A stretch of 64,000 bases of DNA from Amyelois transitella (Eukaryota; Arthropoda; Insecta; Lepidoptera; Pyralidae). The position numbers and the translations under genes are program-made. The stretch lies in NCBI RefSeq assembly GCF_032362555.1, contig NC_083535.1, forward strand, positions 10,044,001 through 10,108,000, given 5' to 3'. The notes beneath the pieces were generated by a model, which was given only the letters and a program-made list of their open reading frames with translations, was not told the origin of the DNA and searched no databases. Positions 5,407-53,600 of the stretch are shown here, one piece after another; positions within the stretch are counted from its first letter, which is position 1; the number at the start of each line of letters is the position of its first letter.

Positions 5407-5650
5407 TGCCTCTGTGGCGCAGCGGTAGTGCACTTGTCTGTGACACCGGAGGTCCCGGGTTCGAATCCCGGCCAGGGCATGATGAGAAACGAACTTTCTC
5501 TGATTGTCCTGGGTCTTGGATCTTTATCTATATAAGTGTTTATTATAAATATAGTATCGTTGACTTAGTATCTCGTAACACAAGTTTCGAACTTACTTCG
5601 AGGCTAATTCAATCTGTGTAATTTGTCCCGTATATATTTATTTATTATTT
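5407..5650 (+). mobile_element. tRNA-derived SINE, full copy S1
   Basis: The 5' region has a pol III A-box-like TGGCGCAGCGGTAGTGC and a perfect B box inside GGTTCGAATCCCGGCC, followed by a conserved body ('tgattgtcctgggtcttgga', 'cgaacttacttcgaggcta') and an AT-rich end. The same order of blocks is seen in three other copies (20569-20841, 38378-38585, 52681-52868). It is a SINE rather than a tRNA gene because the head is fused to the same body in each copy. Confidence 0.85.
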
Positions 5651-10027: not shown

Positions 10028-12034
10028 TTACAGACATAATTTTTTTCGGAAATTTAGGTTTTCACACCTGTTTCCCCTAGGTGAAGGCAGACAAAAGAAA
10101 AAGTAATGAAGACAGATGGCCCCACGTTGATCAGTACATCCCATTCCCTTTCGAAATCCCGCTTGAGCATCCCATATTTTGTCATCAGTTTCATTCCTGA
10201 CTCTATTAATCAATACCTTAGCATACAATTTGCCGACGACGCTAAGCAGGCTTATACCACGATAATTTTTGCAGTCCAGCTGTGACCCTTTTCCTTTGTA
10301 AAGTGGCACGATAACAGCCTTACACCAATCTTTTGGTACTCGGCCGCTTCCCCAACACAAATTGAAAAGGCAGTACAACTGACTAGCTACTACGCCTTTT
10401 CCTGCTTTAAGCATCTCGACCGACACTCTATCACACCCAGCAGCCTTTCCCGCTTTCATACTCTTAAGTGCTTCCACAATTTCGAACATTTCAATTTCGC
10501 CTTCCATCTCATTCTCTTTTTCTTCGCTATAGCAGAAATCTTTCTTATTTCCTTCCTTTTTTTCAAATAAACTTTCAAAATAGTCCTTCCATATCTTTAG
10601 TACACATTCTTCTCCTTTCACAACGCTACCATCCTGGCATCTGATCCTAGTCAGCTCTCTGGTTATAGTATTTCCTCGGGCTGACCTTACGGATTTCCAG
10701 AATACTTTCAGATTTGACTGAAAGTCTTCTGATAGCCTTTTATCAAAATCCTCTTTATACTCTTCTTTCTTTCTAATCACAGCTTTCTTAACCAAATCTT
10801 TCATTTTCTTATATTCCTTACGTGCTTCATTCACATCTTCATCTATAACCTCTTGCATTCTTAAGTTAGCTTTTGCTGCTAACAAATCCAGCCATGCTTT
10901 CTTCTTTAATCGCACAAGTTCTTGCACATCTTTACTCATCCACGCATTTTTGTGATTTTTTCCTTTCCTTCTTCTACTTACACCACACACTTCAACAGCT
11001 ACTTTCACAATTCTTTCTTTAAATTCCTTCCATCCATCTTCAATATCGCTCATTTCCTCTAAATCTTCAAATTCATCCTTCAGTCTATTAATATACTTCT
11101 TACCTACATCCATATCTTGCAAATTTTCTACTTTTACTCTTTCCAAAGCGCTGGTTTGCTCCCTTACCCTGTGCCGCCAGCGATTGAAGATACCCCTTAT
11201 CCGGGATATCACCAGTAAATGGTCCGAGTCAATGCCAGCACCGCGATATGCACGGGTATCCAGCACTTTGTTCTTCAATCTTTCATCTACAATCACAAAG
11301 TCTATCATACTTTTTAAAATACCTTCCACTCTTGTGTAGGTGTGGATCTCTTTATGTTGAAACATTGAGTTCGACACAAAAAGATCCCACTCTAGACAAA
11401 TTTCTAATACACTTCTTCCATTATCATTCACCTTTTCGTCACCAAACGCACCAAGCACCTTTTCATATCCATCACGCTTTACACCCACCCATCCATTAAA
11501 ATCACCTAACATAATAATCTTCTCATTTGGCTTGGTAACTTTCAATACTTCTCTTACACTATTCCAGAACTCCTCGTTTTCGCTTTTTGCTGATGTTGTA
11601 CCCCTCGAACCCACATCCCAAGGTGCATAAACACCTAGAACGAAGATCCGAGTGATTCCAACTTTCAGCCTAATCCATAGCAGACGAGGGCTGACACACT
11701 CATACTCATTCACGCACTCAGCCATTCGTGCAGAAAGAATTAGACCGACCCCTTGACAGCCTCGGCTGGTACTGGAAATTCCAGACCAATACGCCGTGTA
11801 AGGGCCGTGCTGCGTCGCGTCGCATCCTTTCCGCTTCGTTTCATTCACGCACAACACATCCAAACGTCTTTCATCCATCATCTGGCATACTTCCTCAATC
11901 TTATCCTTCATTCCTCCTCTTACATTCATCGTCGCAAAGCGGCTTTCAGCAGACCGCATACCGCTCCCGCCGGGAACGAGACGTGATGGGGTGCGGACAC
12001 CATCGCCGCCATTTATATGCTTTTTAAGGTTCAT
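10028..12034 (-). pseudogene. LINE endonuclease/reverse transcriptase ORF, C-terminally truncated
   Basis: The 668-codon frame opens at an ATG ending at 12034. The N-terminal half is an apurinic-type endonuclease: NETK (metal-binding Glu), LGDFNG (Asp-Asn) and DSDHLL (catalytic Asp-His) occur in order. The second half begins a reverse transcriptase (NYRGISLL and AGFRKGMGC blocks). Homology stops at about 10128, well before the catalytic YxDD palm motif, and about 30 unrelated residues follow before the stop. The copy therefore cannot encode a working polymerase. In insect annotations this RTE-like family is often labelled 'craniofacial development protein 2-like'. No stop or frameshift interrupts the remaining 1.9 kb, suggesting a fairly recent insertion that lost its 3' part. 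Confidence 0.9.
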
Positions 12035-13447: not shown

Positions 13448-16400
13448 ATGGGCAATCAACACTCCGCCGCACACATTGCTAAGCCCAGGAAGAACGTGCA
13501 CTGGAAGTCCGCAGGTAAACACCCTCTGACCTTTAGCCTTGCCGCGAATCCGGTACGACCGCCACTAAATATCACACCGCATTCGACACGAACCGAGGCC
13601 CCTGACTACGTTGCTATTTTTAAAAAGACTGCGCGCTGCGATTCCTAAAGCGTGGCACAACAAAACAAATCGTAAGAAAGACTGTTCGCTTTCATGTAAC
13701 GACTATCGGGCGTATAATTTTGTTAAGAGATTTATGCCAAATGTCTTTATGTCTGCAGCCGGGTGCTTAACTATAATCAAAAGTATACCTTATTCATTGA
13801 TGTTTTCTATAATTTCAGGGCGACCAGCACCGCCTGGAAAACCGGATATCATTCCTATACTTACTGACGATGAGCCGAATGCCATTACTCTACGGTGGGC
13901 GCCCGCAGCGCACGATGGAGGCGCGCCGCTGCAGGGGTACCAGGTGGAGTGCAATCGCCTGGGCTCGCCCGACTGGATCCGCACTGCACCGCCGATTGTT
14001 CTTCGACCTGAGCTCGTGCTTACGGGGCTGGAGCCTCCACATCGCTACCAGTTCCGTGTGGCAGCCCTGAACGCTGTCGGCCGTTCAGAATACAGCGAAC
14101 TCTCCGACGTACTTACGGTTAGCTTCGAACGAGGCGCTCAGGAAGCGCCCGTCTTCCTCCAACATCTCGACGATATTACTGCCCTTGAAAATGATAAAAC
14201 TGAATTCCGCGTGTCATTTACCGGCGCGCCTACTCCTACTATAGCCTGGTTTAAAGATGACTATGAAATATTCAGCAGCCGACGAACAGCTATTACGACC
14301 GATGAGTCTTCTAGCGTTTTGGTCTTTCACCAAACTCTGGCTAGTGACGAGGGTGAAATCAAATGCACGGCCACTAATCGCGCTGGACACGCTGTTACCA
14401 AAGCGCGGCTGGCCCTCGAAGCCGCACCTAAACTACGCTATCCGCGACAGTACGAAGACGGATTACTCTACGAAATAAACGAAACGGTTTTCTTAAAAAC
14501 TACAATCGTAGGAAAGCCAACGCCGATAGTCGAATGGCGACATGATGGTCAACCGATAATAGTAGACGACCGCGTAGAAATTACGAATACACCTAAATAT
14601 TCTGTGCTAAAGATTCACTCGGCGCGCAGAAGTGACCGAGGAGAATATCAAGTGCATGCAAAGAATAATATAGGCGAAGACACAGCCGCCTTCTTGGTAA
14701 CGATAACGGCGCCACCAGACCCACCTAAGCGCGTGTCGGTAACACGACAAGTAGACAAATCTGTCACACTGGACTGGGAACCACCGGAAGACGACGGTGG
14801 TTGCCGCATAGGAAATTATGTAGTCGAGTACTACCGCACGGGATGGAACGTATGGTTAAAAGCGACGACTAGTCGAAAGACAAACGTGACGCTCTTCGAT
14901 TTAATCGAAGGGAGCGAGTACCGTTTTCGTGTGAAAGCCGAGAGTCCTTATGGTATGAGTGCACCGAGTGTAGAGTCGGCGGCTGTCAAAATACCCGGAC
15001 GCGCTGTGGACGTAGAATTCCTGGCGATAGAGTCACGGATTATCAATGAAGTATTAACGAAAGAGGAAGGCGAGGTGCCTCGGGTGTCGCCGGTGCCGCG
15101 CCGTAAACGTGCAAACACCGCACCGGAGGCGGCCCCGCCGTCCAGGATGCCTCGTACTGATTCCAAAGACCCAGCCGGTAGCAACGAATTTATGCTCGTA
15201 TTGTATCCAGACAAGGACGATAAAGCGGGTAACTATCCAATTTTATTAATTTTACTTAATAGCACCTAAAGCTAACTGACAGGCTCTCTCATCGTGTTTT
15301 ATGCCTGTAATCTATGTTGGGTTAAGTTCGCCTGGGTCACGCAAAGTAGACGGAACTCAATTCCTGATATAACTTACAGGAGATCGTGGTCATAGGCGGA
15401 TAAGACAATAGGTGGACACCAGACTCCTTTCCAGGATGCAACCAAGACAAACATCAGGGCATCAGACAATAGGCGGTTGCTTTGTTTTTCTGTCGAAAGA
15501 CCAGACTTTTCTCAATTCACTTTGTTTACCGTAATTTCTGATAATAGCTAACAGATTCAGGCGATTGTTTGTTTTACGTTTTCTATGAATAAAACTTGCC
15601 AAGCGAATCTAGACTGCATAAAATTGAGTAAACAAGCCTTGTTTTGTCTTTATTTTTGCTAGTAGATTTACATGCTAAGCGAAATGTGCATATCTTATGT
15701 ATAACAGACTGATTTATTCGTATCAATAAAAAAGGGTTTTATTCGCCACACACATCTCAAGCAAAATGACCACTGAAATAAGTATTTAGGGATCGTGACA
15801 TGTTCTGGCAGACTTTGCCAGTTTGCCCACTCGAGTGTCTTTTTACCACTATGTATGGTAAAACGACACTGCTTTGTGAAGATTTCTGAGGAATCAAAAT
15901 CCTTTAAATTCTCAAAGATTTGGTTATGTTTATATTCTTCTAGACTACGCCCGTGGCTCCGCCCGCGTATTATGAAAAGAACCTACATGACTAGAATTTT
16001 AAATCTCTATAAGCGGTTTGGGATGTGCGTCATAATGTCAATCATATAGTCAGCATTTCCCTTTATGAAAAATGAACTTTGTCACAATTAATATTGTTGC
16101 ACTGGCTTCCACTAAGTTTCCTTTATTATATTTTATAGGAAACATATTATATTTATTTTTTTGGCTTTATAATTATAAAAATTTCTTTAAGTCCTTAAAT
16201 TTATTATAATTTTATTGTATGAATTCTGAACTTTGTAACTCTGCGTCGAGTTGACTTTAATTTTGCATGACATAAATTGTCCGTGGCTTTATGGATAGAA
16301 CCCGGGTCGTGGCGTGCGCATATTTAAACTATAAATACGCGGCGTCGCTCTAACTACCCGGAGGTTACGGAACTTTGTGCCGTATTGTTGATCGTTTGCA

Positions 16401-18631: not shown

Positions 18632-18706
18632 AAATTATCTAAAACAAGTCGGTCATGAAGTCATAAATAAGCCAATTTCTTGAAAATCTGTTTGTTACAA
18701 ATCACA

Positions 18707-20320
18707 ATGTTAGAATCCCGTTTGTTTACATATTTTTTTCCTAAATTAGCACGTTCAATATCAGAATTTAGAATTCCATGTACCGACTGTTTACTAAATG
18801 GGCCGAAGCGCAAAGTTGTTGACCCTAAGTTATGTCATATTCGAGATAAAGGACTAGTTCTTGGTGTGTATTATAATGAAAATATTTCAGTCGGTGAACG
18901 TGCAATCCTTACTGCTAGTGCCCAAAAATATGACCAGAAAGTAGGTGGCAAATTATGGAAAGTGCTTAAACTAGCCCCCATACCGAGACTTGGTGAACAC
19001 AGGGTATTTTTCGACCTTGACTCAGATTATGCTTTCGTAGCTGTGGCCGGTCTAGGCTCCGAATGTCTAGCATTCAACGAGACGGAGCAGTTAGATGAAA
19101 GCAAGGAGGCCATACGAATAGCTGCCGGCATAGGCGCCAAGGCGTTGCAACAGATGCACCCGAGGCATATTGACGTCGAATCATTCGGCAACGCTGAAGC
19201 CGCCGCTGAAGGCGCCTCTCTGGCCACATGGCAATTCCGCGAGTATCGAGCTCCAGACCACGCACGCAAAATACCTATAACAAGACTACATCTTTATGAC
19301 GACTGCGACTTCGTGGGTTGGAAAATGGGCCAAGTGAAAGCTGAAGCACAAAATCTAGCTCGTTTTTTACAGGAGATGCCTGCAAATTTACTTAACCCCA
19401 CAAGTTTTGCGAAAATAGCAGTCGATTTACTATGTGAATTGGATATTAACGTGGAGGTCAAGACACAAGGATGGGCGGCGAGTCGAGAGATGGGTGGATT
19501 TGTCGGTATCGGTAAATCATCAGTGCAACCTCCACTTTTTGTAGAAATAGGTTATTTCGGTGGAGGACCATGTTCCCGGCCCATAGTGTTAATAGGTAAA
19601 GGTGTAACTTTCGACAGTGGAAGTCTAGATTTAAAATCGGCAAAAGATTTAAAGTACATGAGAGGTGACATGGCGGGGGCCGCTTGTGTGTTAGCGATCA
19701 CGAGAGCTGCCGCTAGATTGAAGTTGCCGGTGAACATAAGAGGTATATTACCGCTTTGCGAAATCATGCCCAGCGGGCGCAGCCCGAAGTTTGGCGATGT
19801 GTTTTCTAGCGCCAATGGCAAATCCATTCACCTTAGATTACCTTCCAAGGAAGGGCGTCTAGTCATAGCTGACAGTTTGGTATACGCCAGAAAATACTGG
19901 CCACGATTCATCGTTGATATTGGAACAATGTCAAAAGAACTGCTAGATACATTAGGCGGTGCCGCATGCGGATTCTATACGAATTCGGAGGAGCTCATGT
20001 GCTACACTCAGTCTGCTAGTAGCCAAACGGGCGACCGGATCTGGCGGATGCCGCTGTGGAAATACTACGAGCAGCGTGTTCTTCATTGCAGTACCGGTGA
20101 CGTGGAGAACACAGCCGCACACAAGTTCGGGGATTCTCCCAATTGTGCCGCTTTTCTCAAGCAGTTCATCTGCGACAGCAACTGGATGCATTTCGACACT
20201 TACAACATCATGTACAGCAAGGGCCACGACTTCGCGTACCTCGGCCGCGGCATGACCGGACGCCCCACCCGCACCGTCATTGAGCTTATGTGTCAAATGG
20301 TGGCCGATTCTAAATTGTAA
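18707..20320 (+). CDS. M17 leucyl-aminopeptidase-like protein, probably catalytically impaired
   Basis: A single exon encoding 537 residues from the first ATG in frame. The C-terminal M17 domain is clear: GKGVTFDSG supplies Lys298 and Asp303, the following DLK supplies Lys310, and MRGDMAGAA supplies Asp321. By colinear alignment to the bovine enzyme (constant offset of 48), Glu334 and Arg336 correspond to Glu382 and Arg384, but metal ligand Asp332 is Ser380: the usual NTDAEGR block reads LPSKEGR. Loss of this ligand should weaken or abolish the two-metal centre. Insect sperm leucyl aminopeptidases (S-Laps, loopin) are a known group in which many members have lost active-site residues, and I infer this belongs with them. 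The N terminus (Arg/Lys with Phe/Leu) could be a mitochondrial presequence. The absence of introns would fit a retrogene. Confidence 0.88.
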   Translation: MLESRLFTYFFPKLARSISEFRIPCTDCLLNGPKRKVVDPKLCHIRDKGLVLGVYYNENISVGERAILTASAQKYDQKVGGKLWKVLKLAPIPRLGEHRVFFDLDSDYAFVAVAGLGSECLAFNETEQLDESKEAIRIAAGIGAKALQQMHPRHIDVESFGNAEAAAEGASLATWQFREYRAPDHARKIPITRLHLYDDCDFVGWKMGQVKAEAQNLARFLQEMPANLLNPTSFAKIAVDLLCELDINVEVKTQGWAASREMGGFVGIGKSSVQPPLFVEIGYFGGGPCSRPIVLIGKGVTFDSGSLDLKSAKDLKYMRGDMAGAACVLAITRAAARLKLPVNIRGILPLCEIMPSGRSPKFGDVFSSANGKSIHLRLPSKEGRLVIADSLVYARKYWPRFIVDIGTMSKELLDTLGGAACGFYTNSEELMCYTQSASSQTGDRIWRMPLWKYYEQRVLHCSTGDVENTAAHKFGDSPNCAAFLKQFICDSNWMHFDTYNIMYSKGHDFAYLGRGMTGRPTRTVIELMCQMVADSKL

Positions 20321-20568: not shown

Positions 20569-20841
20569 TTTTTTTTTTTTTTTTTTTTTTTATAAATAAA
20601 TATATAAATATATACGGGACAAATTACACAGATTGAGTTAGCCTCGAAGTAAGTTCGAGACTTGTGTTACGAGATACTAACTCAACGATACTTTATTTTA
20701 TAATAAATACTTATATAGATAAACATCCAAGACCCAGGCCGATCAGAGAAAGTTCTTTTCTCATCACGCCCTGGCCGGGATTCGAACCCGGGACCTCCGG
20801 TGTCACAGACAAGCGTACTACCGCTGCGCCACTGAGGCCGT
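20569..20841 (-). mobile_element. tRNA-derived SINE, full copy S2
   Basis: The mirror image of the copy at 5407. The minus strand opens with a tRNA-like head (TGGCGCAGCGGTAGTACGC ... GGTTCGAATCCCGGCC), runs through the conserved body and ends in a long A-run, seen here as about 23 T at 20569-20591. It sits in the gap between two convergent genes. The long, pure A-tail suggests a young insertion. Confidence 0.88.
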
Positions 20842-30635: not shown

Positions 30636-30699
30636 TAATAGCGACATTTTACCTGAAAATAAAATGTTTATTAAACATACTTACCTTATTCGAAGCTTA
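30636..30699 (+). repeat. DIRS 3' extreme, 64-bp arm pairing with 30897-30960
   Basis: An exact reverse complement of 30897-30960. It forms the outermost part of the element's 3' end and overlaps the first bases of the 177-bp inverted repeat. Confidence 0.9.
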
Positions 30700-30862
30700 T
30701 TATATGAGAGAGGGGCAGCTATTTCCGGTCCTAGTACTAGTCTTGACTTCCGGTTTAGGTCCACGCATCCCTCCTTCCGTCTCCTACCACGCCTCCCCCC
30801 ACCAAGCGACACTAGCGCCACCACAGGCAGTTGGATTTTGAAGTCCAATATTTTCCTCATTG
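30686..30862 (+). repeat. DIRS terminal inverted repeat, 3' copy (177 bp)
   Basis: Identical, in inverse orientation, to 35170-35346. It includes the 'tattatatgagagaggggc' block and a GC-rich middle. Confidence 0.92.
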
Positions 30863-30896
30863 AGTAGTTTTTATAACACCAGGTAGATGTATAAAC

Positions 30897-31001
30897 TAAG
30901 CTTCGAATAAGGTAAGTATGTTTAATAAACATTTTATTTTCAGGTAAAATGTCGCTATTAAACAGTACTGTACCGTTATTCGAAGCTTATTATATGAGAG
31001 A
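30897..31001 (+). repeat. DIRS internal complementary region
   Basis: 30897-30960 is complementary to the element's 3' extreme (30636-30699) and 30956-31001 is complementary to its 5' extreme (35321-35366). The two halves overlap by the five bases TATTA at 30956-30960, matching the TAATA found at both outer borders. This is the arrangement expected of a template for the circle junction in the DIRS replication model. Confidence 0.9.
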
Positions 31002-31261
31002 TTTGTCTATTATCGCCTGGTGGTCGCTAGGGAACGTCAATGTGATCAAAAAGACTTTAAAGTCATCGAATCTATATTTTTATTAAAATATAGGTAGATG
31101 GTATAGGTGCCAGCAGTGACGAGGCATAGGTGATTATTAATGTTTTATTGTAAATCAACACATTGTTACTATATGTAGACAAATATATAAATTATAACAA
31201 ACAAAATTATGAAAAGAAAATATGAAATCTGAGCATATGATTTTCTAATTTTGTGTATTAA

Positions 31262-33274
31262 TCAATCATCTGTAGGAGTAAACAAAGCGGAAATAGAGTG
31301 AGCATGTGCTGAGGAGGGTGTTAACTCTCTCCGATAAAATCTAAAGAACGTATTAGCAGATTTCCAGTTTCCCCTGGAAAGTATGTCTTCCAGTTGGAAA
31401 TTTTCTATCCAACTCTTAGATGCAACAGCTGATCTCAGACTTCCTGGAGTGGCTTCTATTCCCGCGTCATTAAGTAGTTTCTTCACCCAGCCTCCGATAA
31501 TTGTACGCGAAGCGGGTTTAGGGGTTCCTGTTATGGTTACAAAAAGACAATCACTTTTAGCCCGGGATCTTCGTTCTTGCGTAAGGGCAATTAGATGTTT
31601 TACCCAGTATACTGGACAGAGTAGGTTATTCTCCTCATTCGGCATCAATTTCCAATTGGATTGTCGTCTTTTATCGGTATCGGTTTTAGAGCCGAAGGCA
31701 GGTGTGAAAATTATTGCATCTTCTGACACTGAGTAGTATTCAGGTGAAATTCTTAGTAATGTGAGGTCATGCACTCGTCTTCCTGAACAGAGTAGAAGAA
31801 TGGTTGCTGTTCTTTTTGCTGCCTCTAATATCTCAGATTGACCGGTCGCCTTTATGCTCAAAAAGCGAATGAGGATATCCGTATCCCAAATGGGTGGTTT
31901 ACTAGGTCTAGGGGTCGCTAAAGCAACGGCTTTTAGCACTTGCTTTACCAGGCTATTAGAGCTTAACTTCTCTTGGCCTTCTGGGTTGACAAATGTAGAA
32001 ATAGCAGATTTATGGACAAGAATAGTGCTAAGTGAGAGCTTTTCTTTTTGGTGTAAGTCGGCTACGAAACGCGCAAAATCAGATCCCGATGGATTATACA
32101 TATCAATACCTTGTTCCTTTGCCCACTTTATCCACCTCTTCAATGCGGGCCGATAAGTGTTAAGCGTGGACCTACGCCAACTTGATGACAGCAATTCACG
32201 TTGTTCTGTTGACCAATTGGTTAAGTGTTGACTCCACCCCCACATTTCCATATCTCCTAAGTCATTTCTAATGCTTTGGATGGAGGTAGTCCTGTCGATA
32301 AGTCTATCAGAACTTAGCGTAGATTTATTACGATGAAGGGGACAGTCAGATAATTCGCTGATGCGTTGTTCAGATGTGATGGAGGAAACACCCATGCTAG
32401 GTGGTAAGTCCATGTTTTGTTGAATGCATCGTGAACTTGCGCTCTGTCGAGCAATGTGTAGGGAACTACGTGAGCCCGACGTGATGTGAGTAGATCGATT
32501 ACCAGATAGCCCCACTTTTTGAACACCTTCAGAGTCATAGCAGATTGAAGGTGAAGCCATACTGGGGAGGGTGCACCCCGTGACAGACAGTCTGCTTTGC
32601 AGTTGAAACTTCCTGAGATGTGGTAAATATTCAGGTGAATATAGTTGAGTAGTTGAATTGCTGTTAAGCAAGTAAGTTTTATCAGGGCTGTGGATTTCGT
32701 TCCCCCTTCCTTGCGGAGGTAGGAAACTGTTTCGTTGTTTCATTTCATGGCCAAGGTCGTAGAGTTCAGGTGCCGACCGTGATCTTTTAATGCATTGATA
32801 ATAGCGAGCATTTCCTTCGAATTGTAGTGGAGATGCTGCGGGTTCGGTAACCATGTACCTTTGAGCAAGTCCAGTGCGAATGTTGTCTGGTTGCGTAATA
32901 ATGCTCGATCCTGATTTACTAAAAGGAAGTCGTTTAGATACACTAGTACTAGAGTTCCTTCGTTTTTCAGTTGTTGTGCGATCCAATTCGTCATTGTTGC
33001 AAACACTTTTGGAGCAGAACTGATCCCGAAGGGCAAGCAGACCATTTGTAGGAGCTATTTGCAAAAAATCAGCCTTAGGAACCGTCTGTGACTCCTGGCG
33101 ATAGGTAAGTGGAAGTAGGCGTGATGAAAATCGATATTCATCATCCAGTTGCCCGATTGAATGAAATTTGGTACCTTTTGAATGTTTATAAGTCTGAACT
33201 TTCCCGGACAAACAAATTTGTTCGGGTTTTTTAGGTTGAATATGGGCCTTGACGTGCCGTCGCCTTTGGGGCAT
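31262..33274 (-). CDS. DIRS tyrosine recombinase ORF
   Basis: An open frame of 670 codons. The recombinase itself occupies about residues 368-660: a SAM-like N-terminal part (STLNTYRPALKRWIKW), then CSGRRVHDL with the first catalytic Arg, SLRSAVASKSW with the second, and FFRFYRRE with the candidate nucleophilic Tyr. The upstream 300 or so residues overlap the reverse transcriptase region in another frame and may not be translated as drawn; a more downstream Met is possible. The element uses this enzyme to integrate a circular DNA instead of a DDE integrase. No stop breaks the domain. Confidence 0.85.
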   Translation of the reverse strand: MPQRRRHVKAHIQPKKPEQICLSGKVQTYKHSKGTKFHSIGQLDDEYRFSSRLLPLTYRQESQTVPKADFLQIAPTNGLLALRDQFCSKSVCNNDELDRTTTEKRRNSSTSVSKRLPFSKSGSSIITQPDNIRTGLAQRYMVTEPAASPLQFEGNARYYQCIKRSRSAPELYDLGHEMKQRNSFLPPQGRGNEIHSPDKTYLLNSNSTTQLYSPEYLPHLRKFQLQSRLSVTGCTLPSMASPSICYDSEGVQKVGLSGNRSTHITSGSRSSLHIARQSASSRCIQQNMDLPPSMGVSSITSEQRISELSDCPLHRNKSTLSSDRLIDRTTSIQSIRNDLGDMEMWGWSQHLTNWSTEQRELLSSSWRRSTLNTYRPALKRWIKWAKEQGIDMYNPSGSDFARFVADLHQKEKLSLSTILVHKSAISTFVNPEGQEKLSSNSLVKQVLKAVALATPRPSKPPIWDTDILIRFLSIKATGQSEILEAAKRTATILLLCSGRRVHDLTLLRISPEYYSVSEDAIIFTPAFGSKTDTDKRRQSNWKLMPNEENNLLCPVYWVKHLIALTQERRSRAKSDCLFVTITGTPKPASRTIIGGWVKKLLNDAGIEATPGSLRSAVASKSWIENFQLEDILSRGNWKSANTFFRFYRRELTPSSAHAHSISALFTPTDD

Positions 33275-33852
33275 GGAAATATTGTCGACACAAAGCTGGG
33301 TGTAGACTTTACCGTTTCCAATACTTTGTTTTGCTCTAAAAGCTTTTTTATAATGGCAGCAGCTTCGCCTATGTTTCGAGTTTGACGTCGGAAACTTGGC
33401 ATTCTCGGTGTAGGCCTTGATCGAAGTGGTATTCGATAGCCTTTTAACATGTTGAGGATGTGAGGCGGCGCCCCTCGATCCTGCCAGTGACGAGGAAACA
33501 GACTGAGCTGACCGGCACGGAAGGCCTGAGAAGAGTCAGTATCTTTTATTTGAGTCTCTCCTATCCCGGCGGGATGAGGGAGAGAAGGATCTGTTACTCC
33601 TGGGTTTGTCCTTGGGTCCTTGTCCTGGGTTTCCTCTTTGACTCTTATTTTTTTCCTGAAAGGAATACTCTTTTGTCTTCTTTGACTGTGTACCTTTTTG
33701 CTGGCTGAATTGAGGCTTTTTCTGGGTTGTGCCATGCGCTGATGTCCCGGGACCGTTCTGCGGAGCAGAGTTGCGATCCCTGGTTTTCTGCCAGAAGACT
33801 TTCCTGATGCCGCCAGCTTTTTCCAAAGCGGAGCTAAATCTTTCAGTTTCAA
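32314..33852 (-). pseudogene. DIRS reverse transcriptase/RNase H, broken
   Basis: One frame (33852 to 33055, 33045 to 32740 and 32538 to 32314) carries the pieces. The first holds the RT fingers/palm (FIFNLKN-like and NIDFHHAYFHLPI blocks), the second CLPFGISSAPKVFA and the catalytic motif, the third the conserved segment after RNase H (DAFNKTW, LAWVFPP). There are three lesions. An in-frame TAG at 33055-33057 falls just before the LPFG block. The YxDD box reads YLND (codon AAC), losing the first catalytic Asp. The second piece jumps from the palm straight to an RNase H-like NSKEMLAI, implying an internal deletion. Further stops separate 32740 from 32538. Confidence 0.85.
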
Positions 33853-34744
33853 ATAAGTTCGAACTTGATGGAGGTATTTTCCGTAGACAGCTTTTATGAA
33901 GCGGATCCTTCACCAAAGAGAGGATATTTTCTCTGCGTTGCTGAATAATCTCCGCTCTATGCCCACAAGCTAATTGCATGGTCTCGTTTGCTGCTTTACT
34001 GTAACCACTTTCTAAAAACATGCTGTTTAATTTTTCGTGAATTTCGGTGTATGATAGTGAACCATTTTGACTTGCTAGTAAAAGGAGATTTTGCATCTCT
34101 ATTTGTAAGGCCTTACCTTGTTGTAACAAAGCAAATGTGATGCCTGCAAATGCCTTCTCCATGTTGACATATGATCTGGAATTGTCGTATTGCTTTACCT
34201 CATCATTCGCTTCTAAGCTGGTAAAACCCGGAGAGTGCAAGCAGGTTCTCTGTACGTCAGCATAACGCACACTGTTCCAGTCAGAGCTGTTAAACCGCTG
34301 TAGTTTCATTAATTGTTGAAGCATATGATCAGGGGTGTTAGGGATAGAAGGTTCTTTGATTTTAGTGCTCAAGGTAAAATTGAGCTTTGCTTGGTTAGAA
34401 TCTGGACAAGAACCATGATGTGATTGATTGTCTGACTCATATAATTCCCCACTGACATAAGGGTCAATTCTATCATTACAGGATGGAGTATTGTGTATGT
34501 TAGTTGTAGAGGCTACGTGGCTCTTAAGTTCATTTACCTCCCTGATCAGCTTTTTAAACATGCGGTTACTCACGTTAAGCCTCTGTCTTTTCCTCTTTTT
34601 GCGTCCATGATCATTTGATGAGCTAGATGAGGATGAACTGGAGTCTGAACTCGATGATTCAGAGTGCTTCCTTTTATTTTTCGCTTTCGGGCGATCGTTT
34701 CCAATTTCACCAACAGTACGCTCTGTTGGGGTTTCTTCATTCAT
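33536..34744 (-). CDS. DIRS gag-like ORF1
   Basis: 402 codons from a genuine ATG. It starts with a highly charged region containing a poly-Ser/Asp-Ser tract and a basic nuclear-localisation-like cluster (RKKRKRQR), then a predicted helical middle, and ends in a basic Gln/Ser/Arg-rich tail that overlaps the start of the reverse transcriptase frame by about 300 bp. This is the position and style of the putative gag of DIRS elements; the exact function is not established. Confidence 0.75.
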   Translation of the reverse strand: MNEETPTERTVGEIGNDRPKAKNKRKHSESSSSDSSSSSSSSSNDHGRKKRKRQRLNVSNRMFKKLIREVNELKSHVASTTNIHNTPSCNDRIDPYVSGELYESDNQSHHGSCPDSNQAKLNFTLSTKIKEPSIPNTPDHMLQQLMKLQRFNSSDWNSVRYADVQRTCLHSPGFTSLEANDEVKQYDNSRSYVNMEKAFAGITFALLQQGKALQIEMQNLLLLASQNGSLSYTEIHEKLNSMFLESGYSKAANETMQLACGHRAEIIQQRRENILSLVKDPLHKSCLRKIPPSSSNLFETERFSSALEKAGGIRKVFWQKTRDRNSAPQNGPGTSAHGTTQKKPQFSQQKGTQSKKTKEYSFQEKNKSQRGNPGQGPKDKPRSNRSFSPSSRRDRRDSNKRY

Positions 34745-35169
34745 ACTGAAAGAAACTCTGAAAGAAACCTTAACGAATTACGGGCTTTGAACCCGTCCGT
34801 GGACGTTAGATATGACAAAGGAAATAAGTTAAAAACAATTTACGAACAAAGCGTTTGGAAAAATAACCAAATGAACTGACAAAAATATTGAAGGTAGTTT
34901 TATATTTTATTAGATAGGTAAACCAAAACACTATCTATGAACTGTATCACAGTTAGAATATCTGTTGTTTCGAACAGATACGGAAGTTTTAAGGAGAAAT
35001 TAATAATTTAAAAGTACTCACAGTTTTTTCGATATGAAATACCTTTTACAATTTCTCAAATATTTTTCCTTTTACAATTTCTCCTAGAATATTTGACTAG
35101 TACCGATTATGCGGTCACAAATATGCGTAATGCGTATTGTAGAACCGTCTCGGACGGAAATAAAAACGC

Positions 35170-35346
35170 CAATGAGGAAAATATTGGACTTCAAAATCCA
35201 ACTGCCTGTGGTGGCGCTAGTGTCGCTTGGTGGGGGGAGGCGTGGTAGGAGACGGAAGGAGGGATGCGTGGACCTAAACCGGAAGTCAAGACTAGTACTA
35301 GGACCGGAAATAGCTGCCCCTCTCTCATATAATAAGCTTCGAATAA
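35170..35346 (-). repeat. DIRS terminal inverted repeat, 5' copy (177 bp)
   Basis: The exact inverse of 30686-30862, followed outward by the unique 5' extreme 35347-35366 (cggtacagtactgtttaata). Confidence 0.92.
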
Positions 35347-35747
35347 CGGTACAGTACTGTTTAATAATTATAAGCGCGGATTGTTGATTATTGTGTTTAT
35401 GTATGTATGGACAAGTGAGTTTTGGAGAGTGCTACATTATTGGATATAATGACTTCTGATATTGTCTGCAGTTCTGCACCCACAGCTAATACTAAAATAA
35501 AATTTGTCTAAACATGACACTGGTAGAAATAACCTTATGAAGAATTTTGATTGACAAAGGCAAAATCAAAAAAAAAGGAACATGAGATTGACACTAATGA
35601 CAAGACAACATAATTTACTTTTTGACTTCACTTCCAATTCAAAACAATTACCTATATAGATTTTAAAATGTTGTAACTATGATAAAAACCAGCAGCAAAA
35701 TAGTAAAGTTATGAATTTGACATAAAAAAATAGTAATTTGGGCCAAA

Positions 35748-46645: not shown

Positions 46646-48181
46646 TCACTTACAAGCTTTAATTGAAGTGTTGTAGATTATCCAAAAACCAATAGAATAT
46701 GGTGGCATTGATATATGATTGCCGTAACGAATAATATTTGGAGGGATGTCTAGATTTGGTGACTCATAGTAGAGAGGCCAGCCATTCAACATAACTCTAG
46801 TTGACTTTCTATTATTGGACGGGGCACTGATGATGTACTCATCTATCCTTAAATTATCTCCATGTATAGCAGTGCCATTCAGAAGGAATTTTGCTTTAGC
46901 CATTTCTAAATTGACAGCATAAACTGTTATGGCAGATGTATCATTTGTATATTTTCTGTTGGCACAATGAGCATACATCCTTTGATAGCGTGTACAATGG
47001 CAGTCTACATGCAAAACTTTGTTTCCAACTAATCTCTTATATAACACACTCACCCACCAATCTGGAAGTGGCTCTAAATTCTTATCAATGAGACTATAGT
47101 TCCCTCCAAAAAAGCTTTGACGGATTACTGTAGTGATGTTGTTTAGTGCAGCAAGACCCAACTTGTCAACCCACAGTGGGGTTGCGGCATACGAGTTTGA
47201 CAATCCTGGAGCCCCACCTCCATAAGAACTACTTGTTTCACTCAGCCACATAGGAATGTGGGAATATTTTTCAGTATGGCTCCTCATGGTATGTATTTGT
47301 TTGGCCAATAAATCAAATGTCTCTGGATTCCAAAAGTCTTCCAGTTTTGCTGTTCTACTATTTAGATAGTACTGATGCCAAGAAGTTACATTAATGTAGT
47401 GAGAAGCATTATGCAAAAACTGCACCATGTACTCAAGGCACTCTGGGCGATTTGGCTGTGGTCTTGTTGTATCAGGGCCCACCAGCAATGAATGTTTATA
47501 ACCAGAGTGGTTTAAAAGTTTGCGTAATTTTTTGAAGTCTTGGGCTAGCATGGCAGGTGTTATAGTTGTATTGAAGACATGTTGGTAAGAGTTAGGTTCA
47601 TTACCTAGCTGCCAATCGATGTGGTAATTTTTCTTCTTAGAGTATTGTAGTAGCTCTTTAGCATTGATATCATTCCATCCATGATTTGATTCTCGTATTA
47701 AAGCATTAAATGTAAACAAAAGCTTTATATTTACAGCTTCACAAAATTCGTTTATTTCAGTCCATTTCTCACCTGTCATAAGAAAGAATGGTAAAAATTT
47801 GTGTTTACATAACCTTTTAACAGCTGGACACACAGACTTTGCTCCTTTTGGGCAGTGGTCACAGGAGGCCACAATGTCATCAGGGCTGAAAATGAGACGC
47901 TCTGACATGGTGCCGCCAAGTCGAAGACGCGCTGGCGACAACGCCGCTGCCATCTCGCGAAATCTAGGATTCGTAAACTCCACTTGGTTTTCTTGAATTT
48001 CGGAAGCATCTATGCCGATACTCACAAAATCTTCGGGCAAATGTGCTATCACTTTTTGATTTTCATCAATATTAACGTAGCACTTCTCACCAGAATTATA
48101 TTTTACAAATAAAACCATCAGAGTAACATTGCAACAAAATGCAACTGCACACACAGCCACTAAATATCTTTCAGACATCAT
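46646..48181 (-). CDS. Hpse: Heparanase, GH79 endo-beta-glucuronidase
   Basis: An intronless frame of 511 residues. GH79 heparanases cleave heparan sulfate chains in the matrix or lysosome. Both catalytic acids are in canonical contexts: Glu195 in WQLGNEPNSY (acid/base) and Glu315 in WLSETSSSYGGGAP (nucleophile). A hydrophobic segment at about 8-26 is a signal peptide or signal anchor. The segment that in mammals holds the excised ~6-kDa linker (here about residues 100-135) is short and cysteine-rich (CDHCPKGAKSVC), so two-chain processing as in mammals is doubtful. Many NxS/T sites fit a secretory protein. The first of two adjacent Met codons is used; the second would change nothing important. 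The upstream region has a cluster of TATCGATA motifs. Confidence 0.93.
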   Translation of the reverse strand: MMSERYLVAVCAVAFCCNVTLMVLFVKYNSGEKCYVNIDENQKVIAHLPEDFVSIGIDASEIQENQVEFTNPRFREMAAALSPARLRLGGTMSERLIFSPDDIVASCDHCPKGAKSVCPAVKRLCKHKFLPFFLMTGEKWTEINEFCEAVNIKLLFTFNALIRESNHGWNDINAKELLQYSKKKNYHIDWQLGNEPNSYQHVFNTTITPAMLAQDFKKLRKLLNHSGYKHSLLVGPDTTRPQPNRPECLEYMVQFLHNASHYINVTSWHQYYLNSRTAKLEDFWNPETFDLLAKQIHTMRSHTEKYSHIPMWLSETSSSYGGGAPGLSNSYAATPLWVDKLGLAALNNITTVIRQSFFGGNYSLIDKNLEPLPDWWVSVLYKRLVGNKVLHVDCHCTRYQRMYAHCANRKYTNDTSAITVYAVNLEMAKAKFLLNGTAIHGDNLRIDEYIISAPSNNRKSTRVMLNGWPLYYESPNLDIPPNIIRYGNHISMPPYSIGFWIIYNTSIKACK

Positions 48182-50670: not shown

Positions 50671-53600
50671 TTAGAGTTCATCGTGTTTGGGGCCTGAGAA
50701 TTCCTCGTGGCTGATGAAGCCGTTCTTATCCTTGTCTTCGTGTTGAAAGATCTCCTCGACGAGTTTATCGTGGGACTCGAGCATTTGCTTGATATCGTCG
50801 CTCATTTCAGCGCCATCGGGGGGAACCATCTGCTTCTTCAAGTACTCGCTGACCTGTGAACAAGTACACACACCGATTTGATAAAATTAATCGGGATAAA
50901 AATTTTTAATTTTACCTACCATTATGCAAGATTTATCATATATGATATTCCCTGAATTTCTGATAATAATTTTTGATTTAAAAAGAAATTCTGTATACAT
51001 GGTATGTACTACATAACTTTTGTAAAGAAAATCGCCTCCAATTGATATCCTTATTTTTTAGTTGGTTAAAAACATGAAATCGCTGAACTCCGTAGTAATC
51101 AGTTGCAAAAATAATTGGTTCATAGATTTTGATTTTGGTTCATAGTTTTTGATTGGTCTGTATATTTTCGTGATCATTATAATAAAGCGTTTTGTCTAAG
51201 AAGGTGCTCTAACATAATGTAGATACTCGTACATAAATATTAGTGCAAAAGATTTATAAATCGGTGGAAATAAGGGGAGCGAGAATAAGTGTGTCATTGT
51301 CGGTCAAAGGTACTAATATAAACGTGACGGCTGATCACGGCGGCTCGCGTCTGTTTGCTTACGGTAATACTAACGGCATCTTCTATTGGCAAAGTGGGAC
51401 AGACTGTACTTCAAATTTGTAATGTCATACAGTGTCTTTCGGCGTTATTAGACGAGTTTTTAACACGATTTATTACAATATCAATTATGGTAAGATGTAG
51501 GGATAGTTACAGTGGGGCAGGCCAAGAACATTTTATAGCCTGGGCCAGTGTCTTGTGGATACGAAATAAGAAACATAAATATTTCGATTGGCAGGTTGGC
51601 ATATCGCTCGCTAATTATAAAGACTTTATGCGTATAATGTACATACTACATGTCCTTTTACAAATTTATTATTTTGTAATAAGTAAAAGTGTTACTGTTT
51701 ATAGAAAAATAAATTAATACCAAAAAGGGAAAACCAATCCCTGTATTTACGTTCAGCTCATTTGTTTTTTTTTTTTAAATTTAAAACCTTTTTTTTCTTC
51801 TCATAAATACCAACTCTCTGCTTCAACTACCTACGTGCGGTCCAAATTTCGTAAGAGAGTAGCTCCTGGTTAGAAACTTCTCATCATTTTAAGGAAATAT
51901 TGTTGACCCTTCACCAGTGTCAGAATTGTACCTACTTACAAAGTCTATACGTTATTTTAGAGAGCCTGGCAAACTTTTAAACCTAAGTTCATCAAAAATA
52001 AATAGTTATTTACATGTAGTAAACAACTGAAATCATAAGCCAATGTTAGTAATCATTTTGAAAGCAAAGCCTGCTGTGAACCGAATGACTCAGAAAGAAG
52101 GAGTACAAACGCAAAGGCCCATTCCTCGCCACGCCAGTCATGCTCCTTGTCGTTGCCCTGCACCAATGACTGACCTCCTCTCTCGAAAGTTCTTTATCCC
52201 CATCTGTGTCCATGGCTTGGAACGCTAACTCGATACTCACTTCTTCGCGAGAAAGCATGTTGTCTTTGTCGGCATCAATCTCTTTGAACACATTGGTGGT
52301 GGGGGGAGAGTCACCGATGTTGATCAGCTCCACTTCAAAGTGGAGGGTCGCGTGGGGAGGGATGACGTTCCCGGCTCCTCGCTCGCCGTAGCCCTTACTA
52401 GACGGAATGGTCAATTTTCGCTTCTCACCTGAAAACAGTTATGTTTTGTTAGTTTTGTAGGAGAAGAGCATTTCAATTTTTGAATCCCAATATTCGACGT
52501 TCGATACCTTGGAAGTGGAAGGATTTAGTAAGAGATGGATGGACAGCGTAAAGGTAAGTAAGAGTAATATAAGAGTGGCTAGTGAGATGGCAAATGAGAG
52601 AAGAAATTTCAATAACTAACATACTGTGCGACTTCACGATAAAGAAGATGTGCCTACGATGGCCTGTATGTTCCTAACTCTGTAACACAGGTCCCCGGTT
52701 TAATTCTCGGTGAGAACATGATGGAGAAACGGCCTTTATCTTATTGGTATATGCCTTGATTATCTAAGTGTTTATTATAAAATATAGTAAACATTTTGTT
52801 CGTATCTCATAAAACAAGCCTCGAACTTACTTTGGAGCTTGCTCAAATCTGTGTGATGTTTCCGGTGTATGTTACTAAAATATATTTAAATTCTCTTTTT
52901 TTTTTGTTGATAAATAACCAAGAATTCTTTTATATACTTACAATACGATGATTACCCTACAGTACGGAGATAAGCGCTAATTTGACATGGATTTTTTTGT
53001 TTGAAGAAAACCCATTGATATCTCATGAGGATTTCGTAGGTATGTCATAAATCCAGGATGTAATAAAAAAAGAAAATTTGTTATATATTTGTTTATCCTT
53101 TAAATGTAAATTGTATTTATCTATATCTATGGACTTCGAACTTTCGGATTCTAGCTTGGCATGAATTTTTCTACATATGGTGTAGGTACTTAGTCGATTT
53201 ATTTAGGTAGGTAAGGTATGTACCTATATGTAGGTATGTACTGAAGTACTGAAATATAGGTAAACAGTCTTGAAATCTTAATACTTAGGTAAGTACTTCT
53301 TTTTTTGGGAAATTTACATATATTCATACATACATATGATCACGTTTTTATCCCTTACGGGTTAGACAGAGCCAACAGTCTCGCAGACTGAAAGGCAACG
53401 TTCCGACGTTGGATGGCTTAATATTATGGAACTGAGATTCAATAGAATAATAAATCGCTTAAATGCAGAATCCTAAGTTTATTGTCCTATCCCTTAATCG
53501 CCTTTTACGACATCCATGGGCAAGAGGGTGAGTGGTTCTATTCTAAAGTGCCGAAATCCACACGGCACAATTTGAGTTCGTTTGGAAATAATGACGTTGA

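Follow-up and report, generated by a model that had tools for sequence, protein, structure and literature searches.

A DIRS1-like retrotransposon of Amyelois transitella with complete ends and a dead polymerase

A first-pass annotation of a 64,000-nucleotide stretch of the Amyelois transitella genome (hereafter the window) placed a structurally complete DIRS-like retrotransposon at 30636..35366. Does the element belong with the DIRS group, is it complete, and how did it multiply? We find that it is a genuine DIRS1-like retrotransposon whose ends are complete and whose polymerase is dead. The description as structurally complete thus holds for the ends and fails for the interior, in which pol contains stops, the motif YLND and a large deletion. 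The annotated DIRS-like identity can be narrowed to DIRS1-like on the basis of the ends, the internal complementary region (ICR), a recombinase whose profile matches Cre, and the ATT borders seen in sister copies.

Ends and layout of the element

The element lies on the minus strand (Table 1), with its gag, reverse transcriptase (RT) and recombinase frames in the DIRS order that had been annotated. Its inverted terminal repeats (ITRs), noted from the outset as identical and 177 bp long, match at 177 of 177 positions, as befits a DIRS1-like element and far beyond what chance could produce. An ICR had also been recognized, and it is present: as a whole it occupies 30891-31001, and its right and left parts overlap by TATTA, which contains the circular junction AAT characteristic of DIRS1-like elements. 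Unique extensions had been proposed at both ends, and only the one at the right withstood analysis. The outermost 20 nucleotides at the left align with the 17 nucleotides outside the right ITR (17 matches and 3 single-base gaps) and hence are a divergent ITR in the sense of Piednoel 2011; a left extension was therefore rejected. The borders had been placed nearly correctly, with sister copies moving each one base inward. Split direct repeats, the hallmark of PAT/Kangaroo and Ngaro elements, were not found in the element, its long repeats being inverted and its families of direct repeats no longer than 26 nucleotides.

Table 1. Features of the element and their positions in the window
Feature	Position	Strand	Remarks
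Whole element, ATT...ATT	30637..35365	-	4729 bp; left end 35365, right end 30637; borders from sister copies
Left divergent ITR	35347..35365	-	Alignment with right terminus
Left conserved ITR	35170..35346	-	177 nt, 100% identical to right ITR
gag ORF, 402 aa	33536..34744	-	Ends UGA then CUC; homologous gag in families B-E
UGA between gag and in-phase recombinase frame	33536..33538	-	Proposed readthrough site
Frame open from gag UGA to end of recombinase, 757 codons	31262..33535	-	First ATG 33274
pol (RT/RNase H/MT) remnant	32260..33909	-	+1 frame
Stop in pol remnant	33057	-	Window copy only, among eight
Asn codon of YLND (for RT catalytic Asp)	32932..32934	-	8/8 copies
Junction of deletion of ~152 residues in RT/RNase H	32860..32868	-	Approximate
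Stops in pol remnant	32742 (UGA) and 32316 (UAA)	-	Common to 8/8 copies
Tyrosine recombinase domain	31262..32260	-	Arg 31777, GSLR 31444-31433, Tyr 31336
Left ICR, 46 nt	30956..31001	-	46/46 complementary to 35321-35366
Right ICR, 70 nt	30891..30960	-	68/70 complementary to 30636-30705
Right conserved ITR	30686..30862	-	177 nt, 100% identical to left ITR
Right divergent ITR	30669..30685	-	Alignment with left outer end
Right extension (rE), ~32 nt	30637..30668	-	AATAAA at 30672..30667 spans its edge
8-bp palindromic stem in rE	30644..30667	-	Covarying across five families; copy in ICR

In its published layout (PMC3266345), BmDIRS1 of Bombyx mori measures 4870 bp, with a divergent ITR of 16, a conserved ITR of 155, an rE of 30 and an ICR of 40-62; the corresponding sizes here are about 17-20, 177, 32 and 46-70 in an element of 4729 bp. 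As far as that layout goes, the two elements share the ATT start, the AAT junction, the absence of a left extension and a long overlap of pol with the recombinase frame, but BmDIRS1 ends in ATA whereas our element ends in ATT. Left extensions are described in the same source for fungi and amoebozoa only (Piednoel 2011, PMC3266345).

Sister copies and the loss of the polymerase

We searched the genome (327 Mb in 33 contigs) for copies of the element, whose family we call A, and for its relatives, which fall into four further families, B, C, D and E. At least about nine family A copies were found, including a broken one on contig C32; no second copy was found within the window. Eight were aligned (the window copy, C6a, C4, C6b, C18, C8, C12 and the 5'-truncated C24), the C32 pieces being left out. 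Pairwise differences were 0.34-0.66% among the seven long copies and 0.65-0.81% for C24.

A comparison with sister copies had been proposed by the first-pass annotation, and these turned out to have the same ATT borders in different surroundings: flanks differed from copy to copy, and the alignments ended at ATT...ATT. All eight left ends started with ATTAAACAG and all nine right ends finished with CGCTATT, so that ATT was present at 8/8 left and 9/9 right ends, as expected for NTT termini. The base 3' of the right ATT was A in five copies, T in three and G in one. The base 5' of the left ATT was T in seven of eight copies (C in C18), and a TATT target is therefore possible. In the flanks compared, the borders showed no repetition past ATT, which may reflect insertion without target duplication. 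The ATT borders agree with the site of insertion that the DIRS model expects. A family of only about nine copies might also have arisen by segmental duplication or consist of old relics, but the differing flanks, the abrupt end of the alignments at ATT...ATT and the divergence of just 0.34-0.81% make such an origin very improbable.

Contig C32 stands apart in that its family A pieces (L031 and L032) come in separate parts and are further diverged (95-98.6%), and in that many of the RT matches on it have stops. Perhaps, as a guess, this contig represents a chromosome with little recombination.

The overall layout was common to all eight aligned copies. Compared with families B-E, the family A pol protein is missing about 152 residues, which extend from the RT thumb/connection to the start of RNase H, and about 28 residues of a putative methyltransferase-like (MT) domain. 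All eight copies read YLND where copies of families B-E have YLDD, and in the alignment with those families a further Asp, in RNase H, is replaced by Asn. The solved RT-RNase H structure 8r0s aligned on either side of the same gap, with an E value (1.4) that is weak when taken alone. DIRS-type RT and RNase H are present as a non-functional remnant (RVT_1 0.0017, below its cut-off), and the MT-like domain is a partial remnant that aligns with families B-E and has no Pfam match. Identity of the family A pol to those of families B-E is 38-46%. An open pol with YLDD was found in one of six B copies (C11), three C copies, two D copies (in addition to one fused and one shortened) and two E copies.

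Because eight copies only 0.34-0.81% apart share these pol defects, we conclude that an element with a dead polymerase multiplied. Perfect ITRs, an ICR and open gag and recombinase frames are what a complete autonomous DIRS element would present, as the first reading had it, but that view can hardly be maintained when pol has YLND and stops in the eight aligned copies and is missing the RT thumb/connection together with the beginning of RNase H.

Rates of evolution pointed in the same direction. We estimated maximum-likelihood branches from gap-free columns (441 for pol, 333 for the recombinase and 208 for gag) with one copy per family; the recombinase and gag of family B were those of its C32 copy, in which gag is shortened by a stop. 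The branch of family A was 0.97 for pol, 0.56 for the recombinase and 0.54 for gag, as compared with 0.42, 0.50 and 0.61 for B, 0.50, 0.57 and 0.53 for C, 0.41, 0.45 and 0.48 for E, and 0.94, 0.84 and 1.00 for D, whose branches are long in all three genes. Substitutions seen in a single family among A, B, C and E were distributed between A and the sum of B, C and E as 45:53 in pol, 14:57 in the recombinase and 16:36 in gag (Fisher test, p=0.0005 for pol against the recombinase and 0.001 for pol against recombinase plus gag). Branch lengths and unique substitutions together indicate that on the family A lineage pol lost constraint and gag and the recombinase did not. Within the set of eight copies, differences in gag and in the recombinase look neutral (17 nonsynonymous and 7 synonymous in the recombinase domain), as is expected after insertion, and the claim of constraint thus derives solely from the comparison between families, which are few and represented by one copy each.

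The recombinase and a frame shared with gag

The annotated recombinase proved to be a tyrosine recombinase. It matched PF02899 at 27.4 bits (cut-off 22.3) and phrog_216 at 1e-05, with PF00589 (0.001) falling below its cut-off, and a family profile built from seven sequences matched Cre (4e-06) and a XerC-like protein (3e-04). The profile was needed, PDB searches with single proteins having given no match for the tyrosine recombinase (YR). Scans of Viral_contigs with the YR domain and an RT piece gave no relative, and an AlphaFold model of YR from a single sequence (mean pLDDT 38.9) was too poor for use. In place of HSTR the protein has GSLR, with the His of the Cre HxxR motif aligning to Gly. 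GSxR is present in the aligned YR copies of all five families; a distant family, L049, used for contrast (RT 31% identical, a short YR in its own frame), has HSTR. That motif is not required, being present in 13 of 28 published elements in the account of Piednoel 2011 (PMC3266345).

In families A-E, gag and YR occupy one frame, separated by a single stop, UGA-C. Counted from its first ATG, the YR ORF runs from 33274 to 31262 on the minus strand, and the RT frame lies between and over gag and YR. The pol frame is +1 relative to that of gag and YR, except in C10, for which gag was measured from an earlier stop. Past the UGA, the frame stays open through the pol overlap to YR in A as well as copies of C, D and E; in the best copy of family B (C11) it is open for 846 codons and then interrupted. 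UGA followed by C was present at the end of gag in each of the 24 copies that we inspected (8 A, 6 B, 4 C, 4 D and 2 E), and 13 of them keep the frame uninterrupted from the UGA as far as the YR tyrosine block (A 6/8, B 0/6, C 3/4, D 2/4 and E 2/2).

How much openness should be expected of a frame that overlaps pol? We compared the window copy and those 10 of 16 B-E loci that have a long YR frame, decayed copies being excluded, with synonymous shuffles of pol. Over the 388-630 codons of overlap, no stop was observed in the YR frame of any of these. The shuffles of family A gave a mean of 17.3 stops in 405 codons (minimum 6 of 5000 shuffles), those of eight B-E copies means of 24-32 in 621-630 codons (minimum 11-18 of 2000), and those of two partial B copies means of 15.5 and 21.1 (minimum 6 and 10).

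These results bear on how YR is made. We propose, from sequence comparison and with the scales tipped slightly toward doubt, that insect DIRS elements of this clade make a Gag-YR protein by programmed readthrough of UGA-C, with pol in the +1 frame over a stop-free linker, and that family A dropped pol and lives on Gag-YR and a borrowed RT. Alternatively, an internal start or splicing of the RNA could give YR, the shared gag frame being an inherited accident, a reading that we consider quite possible if on the whole doubtful. The stretch that separates the UGA from the first YR-frame ATG spans 87 codons in A, 243 in B, 15 in C, 235 in D and 15 in E. The stops expected there are 3.1, 9.1, 0.4, 11.2 and 0.3, respectively, and none was observed. 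Their absence is strong evidence in B and D, where none of 5000 resamplings was stop-free, weak in A (P 0.034) and uninformative in C and E. The ATG only 15 codons past the UGA in C and E speaks for an internal start, the openness of the long spacers of B and D against it, and splicing would leave a spacer with no need to be open.

The stop contexts are mixed: UGA CUC in A and B, UGA CAA CCA in C, UGA CUA in D and UGA CUU in E. According to published work, UGA is the least efficient terminator and a C after the stop promotes readthrough (PMC12233894), UGA CUA is a high-readthrough consensus, matched by D, and UGA CAR YYA, which C fits, is a motif of some viruses and yeast, with a UGA CUU G control giving only 0.27% readthrough (PMC4359377). 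The contexts of A, B and E are thus not the strongest known, a point in favor of an internal start or splicing. Two further results favor that reading: a stable RNA structure 3' of the gag UGA was sought in the five families and not found (z -0.3 to -1.5), and conservation of the linker protein beyond what pol dictates was not detected (one of six pairs with P<0.05). The latter is also compatible with a linker that needs only to be open.

A search for DIRS and readthrough yielded no publication among the matches listed, from a collection that leaves out most subscription papers; in PMC8226300 all search terms were present, and the text matched concerned a topic other than DIRS readthrough. Similarly, in the descriptions of other DIRS1-like elements that we saw, we found no mention of a one-frame gag and YR with one UGA. 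The arrangement resembles, as far as it is described, that of Tca2 of Candida, where gag is parted by one stop codon from an enzyme that follows in phase. In retroviral gag-pol readthrough, too, a single stop lies between gag and an in-frame downstream enzyme. Unlike in both of these systems, the in-phase enzyme here would be the recombinase, with pol in another frame. How the three overlapping frames of DIRS elements are expressed is apparently unsettled in the literature, and gag-UGA-C-YR, kept in five families, offers a directly testable mechanism. We regard this design as the aspect most worth an experiment.

Probable templated copying of the ITRs and probable supply of a polymerase in trans

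If its polymerase is dead, how did family A multiply? The ITRs provide a clue. Left and right ITRs were identical in six of the seven copies that have both, with one difference in C12 (178 columns compared). C6a has a base change of its own in both ITRs; C6b and C12 have a 2-bp gap in their left and right ITRs alike, and this gap recurs in the one ITR visible in each of C24 and C32. Variants present in both ITRs of one copy are as predicted by templated copying, and the membership of C6a, C6b and C12 among the eight pol-dead copies suggests that copying from ITR to ITR worked after the loss of pol. The likeness of the ITRs could also be maintained by gene conversion acting between the inverted repeats.

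The RT of a relative would be the simplest supply. At the right end, family A is alike at 55 of 61 aligned positions with B, 56 of 66 with C, 46 of 54 with E and 38 of 49 with D; the similarity of the right ends despite only 38-46% identity in the pol protein makes shared machinery plausible. Counting against supply in trans, the nearest intact pol is just about 46-48% identical to that of family A. On balance we consider it likely, on the evidence of these sequences, that family A is a DIRS1-like family whose own polymerase has been lost, whose ends, Gag and YR remain, and which obtains RT in trans. RT from autonomous relatives elsewhere in the genome would reverse transcribe its RNA, the two ends would be joined into a circle with the ICR as template, and a YR encoded by family A or by a relative would insert this circle at ATT. 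Less certainly, YR would be made as a Gag-YR fusion through readthrough of the gag UGA, pol being nested in the +1 frame.

A different route would be movement as DNA by YR alone, in which a circle is excised and reinserted without reverse transcription, as in Cryptons. The YR frame is open in six of eight copies (broken in two) while pol is dead, and ATT at both borders would suit any YR element. However, simple cut and paste would not transfer one ITR onto the other, and changes in both ITRs at once, as in C6a, C6b and C12, make this route unlikely. Nor is the element, with its RT remnant, a YR element without RT in the manner of a Crypton.

Retention of the ends, Gag and YR by a family that multiplied after losing pol indicates which parts a DIRS element may need to carry and which it can forgo, and it bears on whether RT and YR act in cis or in trans during circle formation. 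As described, DIRS-1 of Dictyostelium and other DIRS1-like elements share with the present families the ITRs, ICR, rE, the gag, YR and pol genes and the circle model, and differ at the HxxR motif, which is GSxR in families A-E; the dead pol further sets family A apart. SIRE/VIPER likewise involves a non-autonomous derivative of a YR retroelement; in the account given (PMC6681497), SIRE retains the ends and a short inner piece, whereas family A retains open gag and YR.

We also considered a mirror case, a B lineage with a broken YR and an open pol, and dropped it. The B copies C24, C20 and C2 (L033, L034 and L036) have in common a 2-bp insertion that breaks YR, and hence this YR-broken lineage was also copied. 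All three are decayed: pol is shifted in frame soon after its start in the C20 and C2 copies, and that of the C24 copy lacks the YLDD stretch and has an early stop.

The right end has two further features. The stem in rE encloses a middle of 7-9 nucleotides and shows changes on both sides at three of its eight pairs (window, L033, L038, L042 and L044); it was picked after viewing the sequences, of which there are only five, and might serve as a site for the recombinase or form a hairpin at the RNA 3' end. Within 30636-30685 on the minus strand, GGTAAGTATG...TTTTCAGG resemble a splice donor and acceptor about 32 nucleotides apart with AATAAA in between, a pattern largely kept in B and C and less so in D and E.

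Elsewhere in the window lie a LINE-like endonuclease-reverse transcriptase ORF (10028-12034, minus strand), in which only the start of the RT domain is in frame, and two tRNA-His genes 15 kb apart (5407-5480, plus strand, and 20767-20838, minus strand). Host-like genes encode an Ig/FN3 protein (13611-15269), an M17 aminopeptidase (18680-20320), a heparanase-like GH79 protein (46646-48181) and an EF-hand/FKBP protein (52046-52414).
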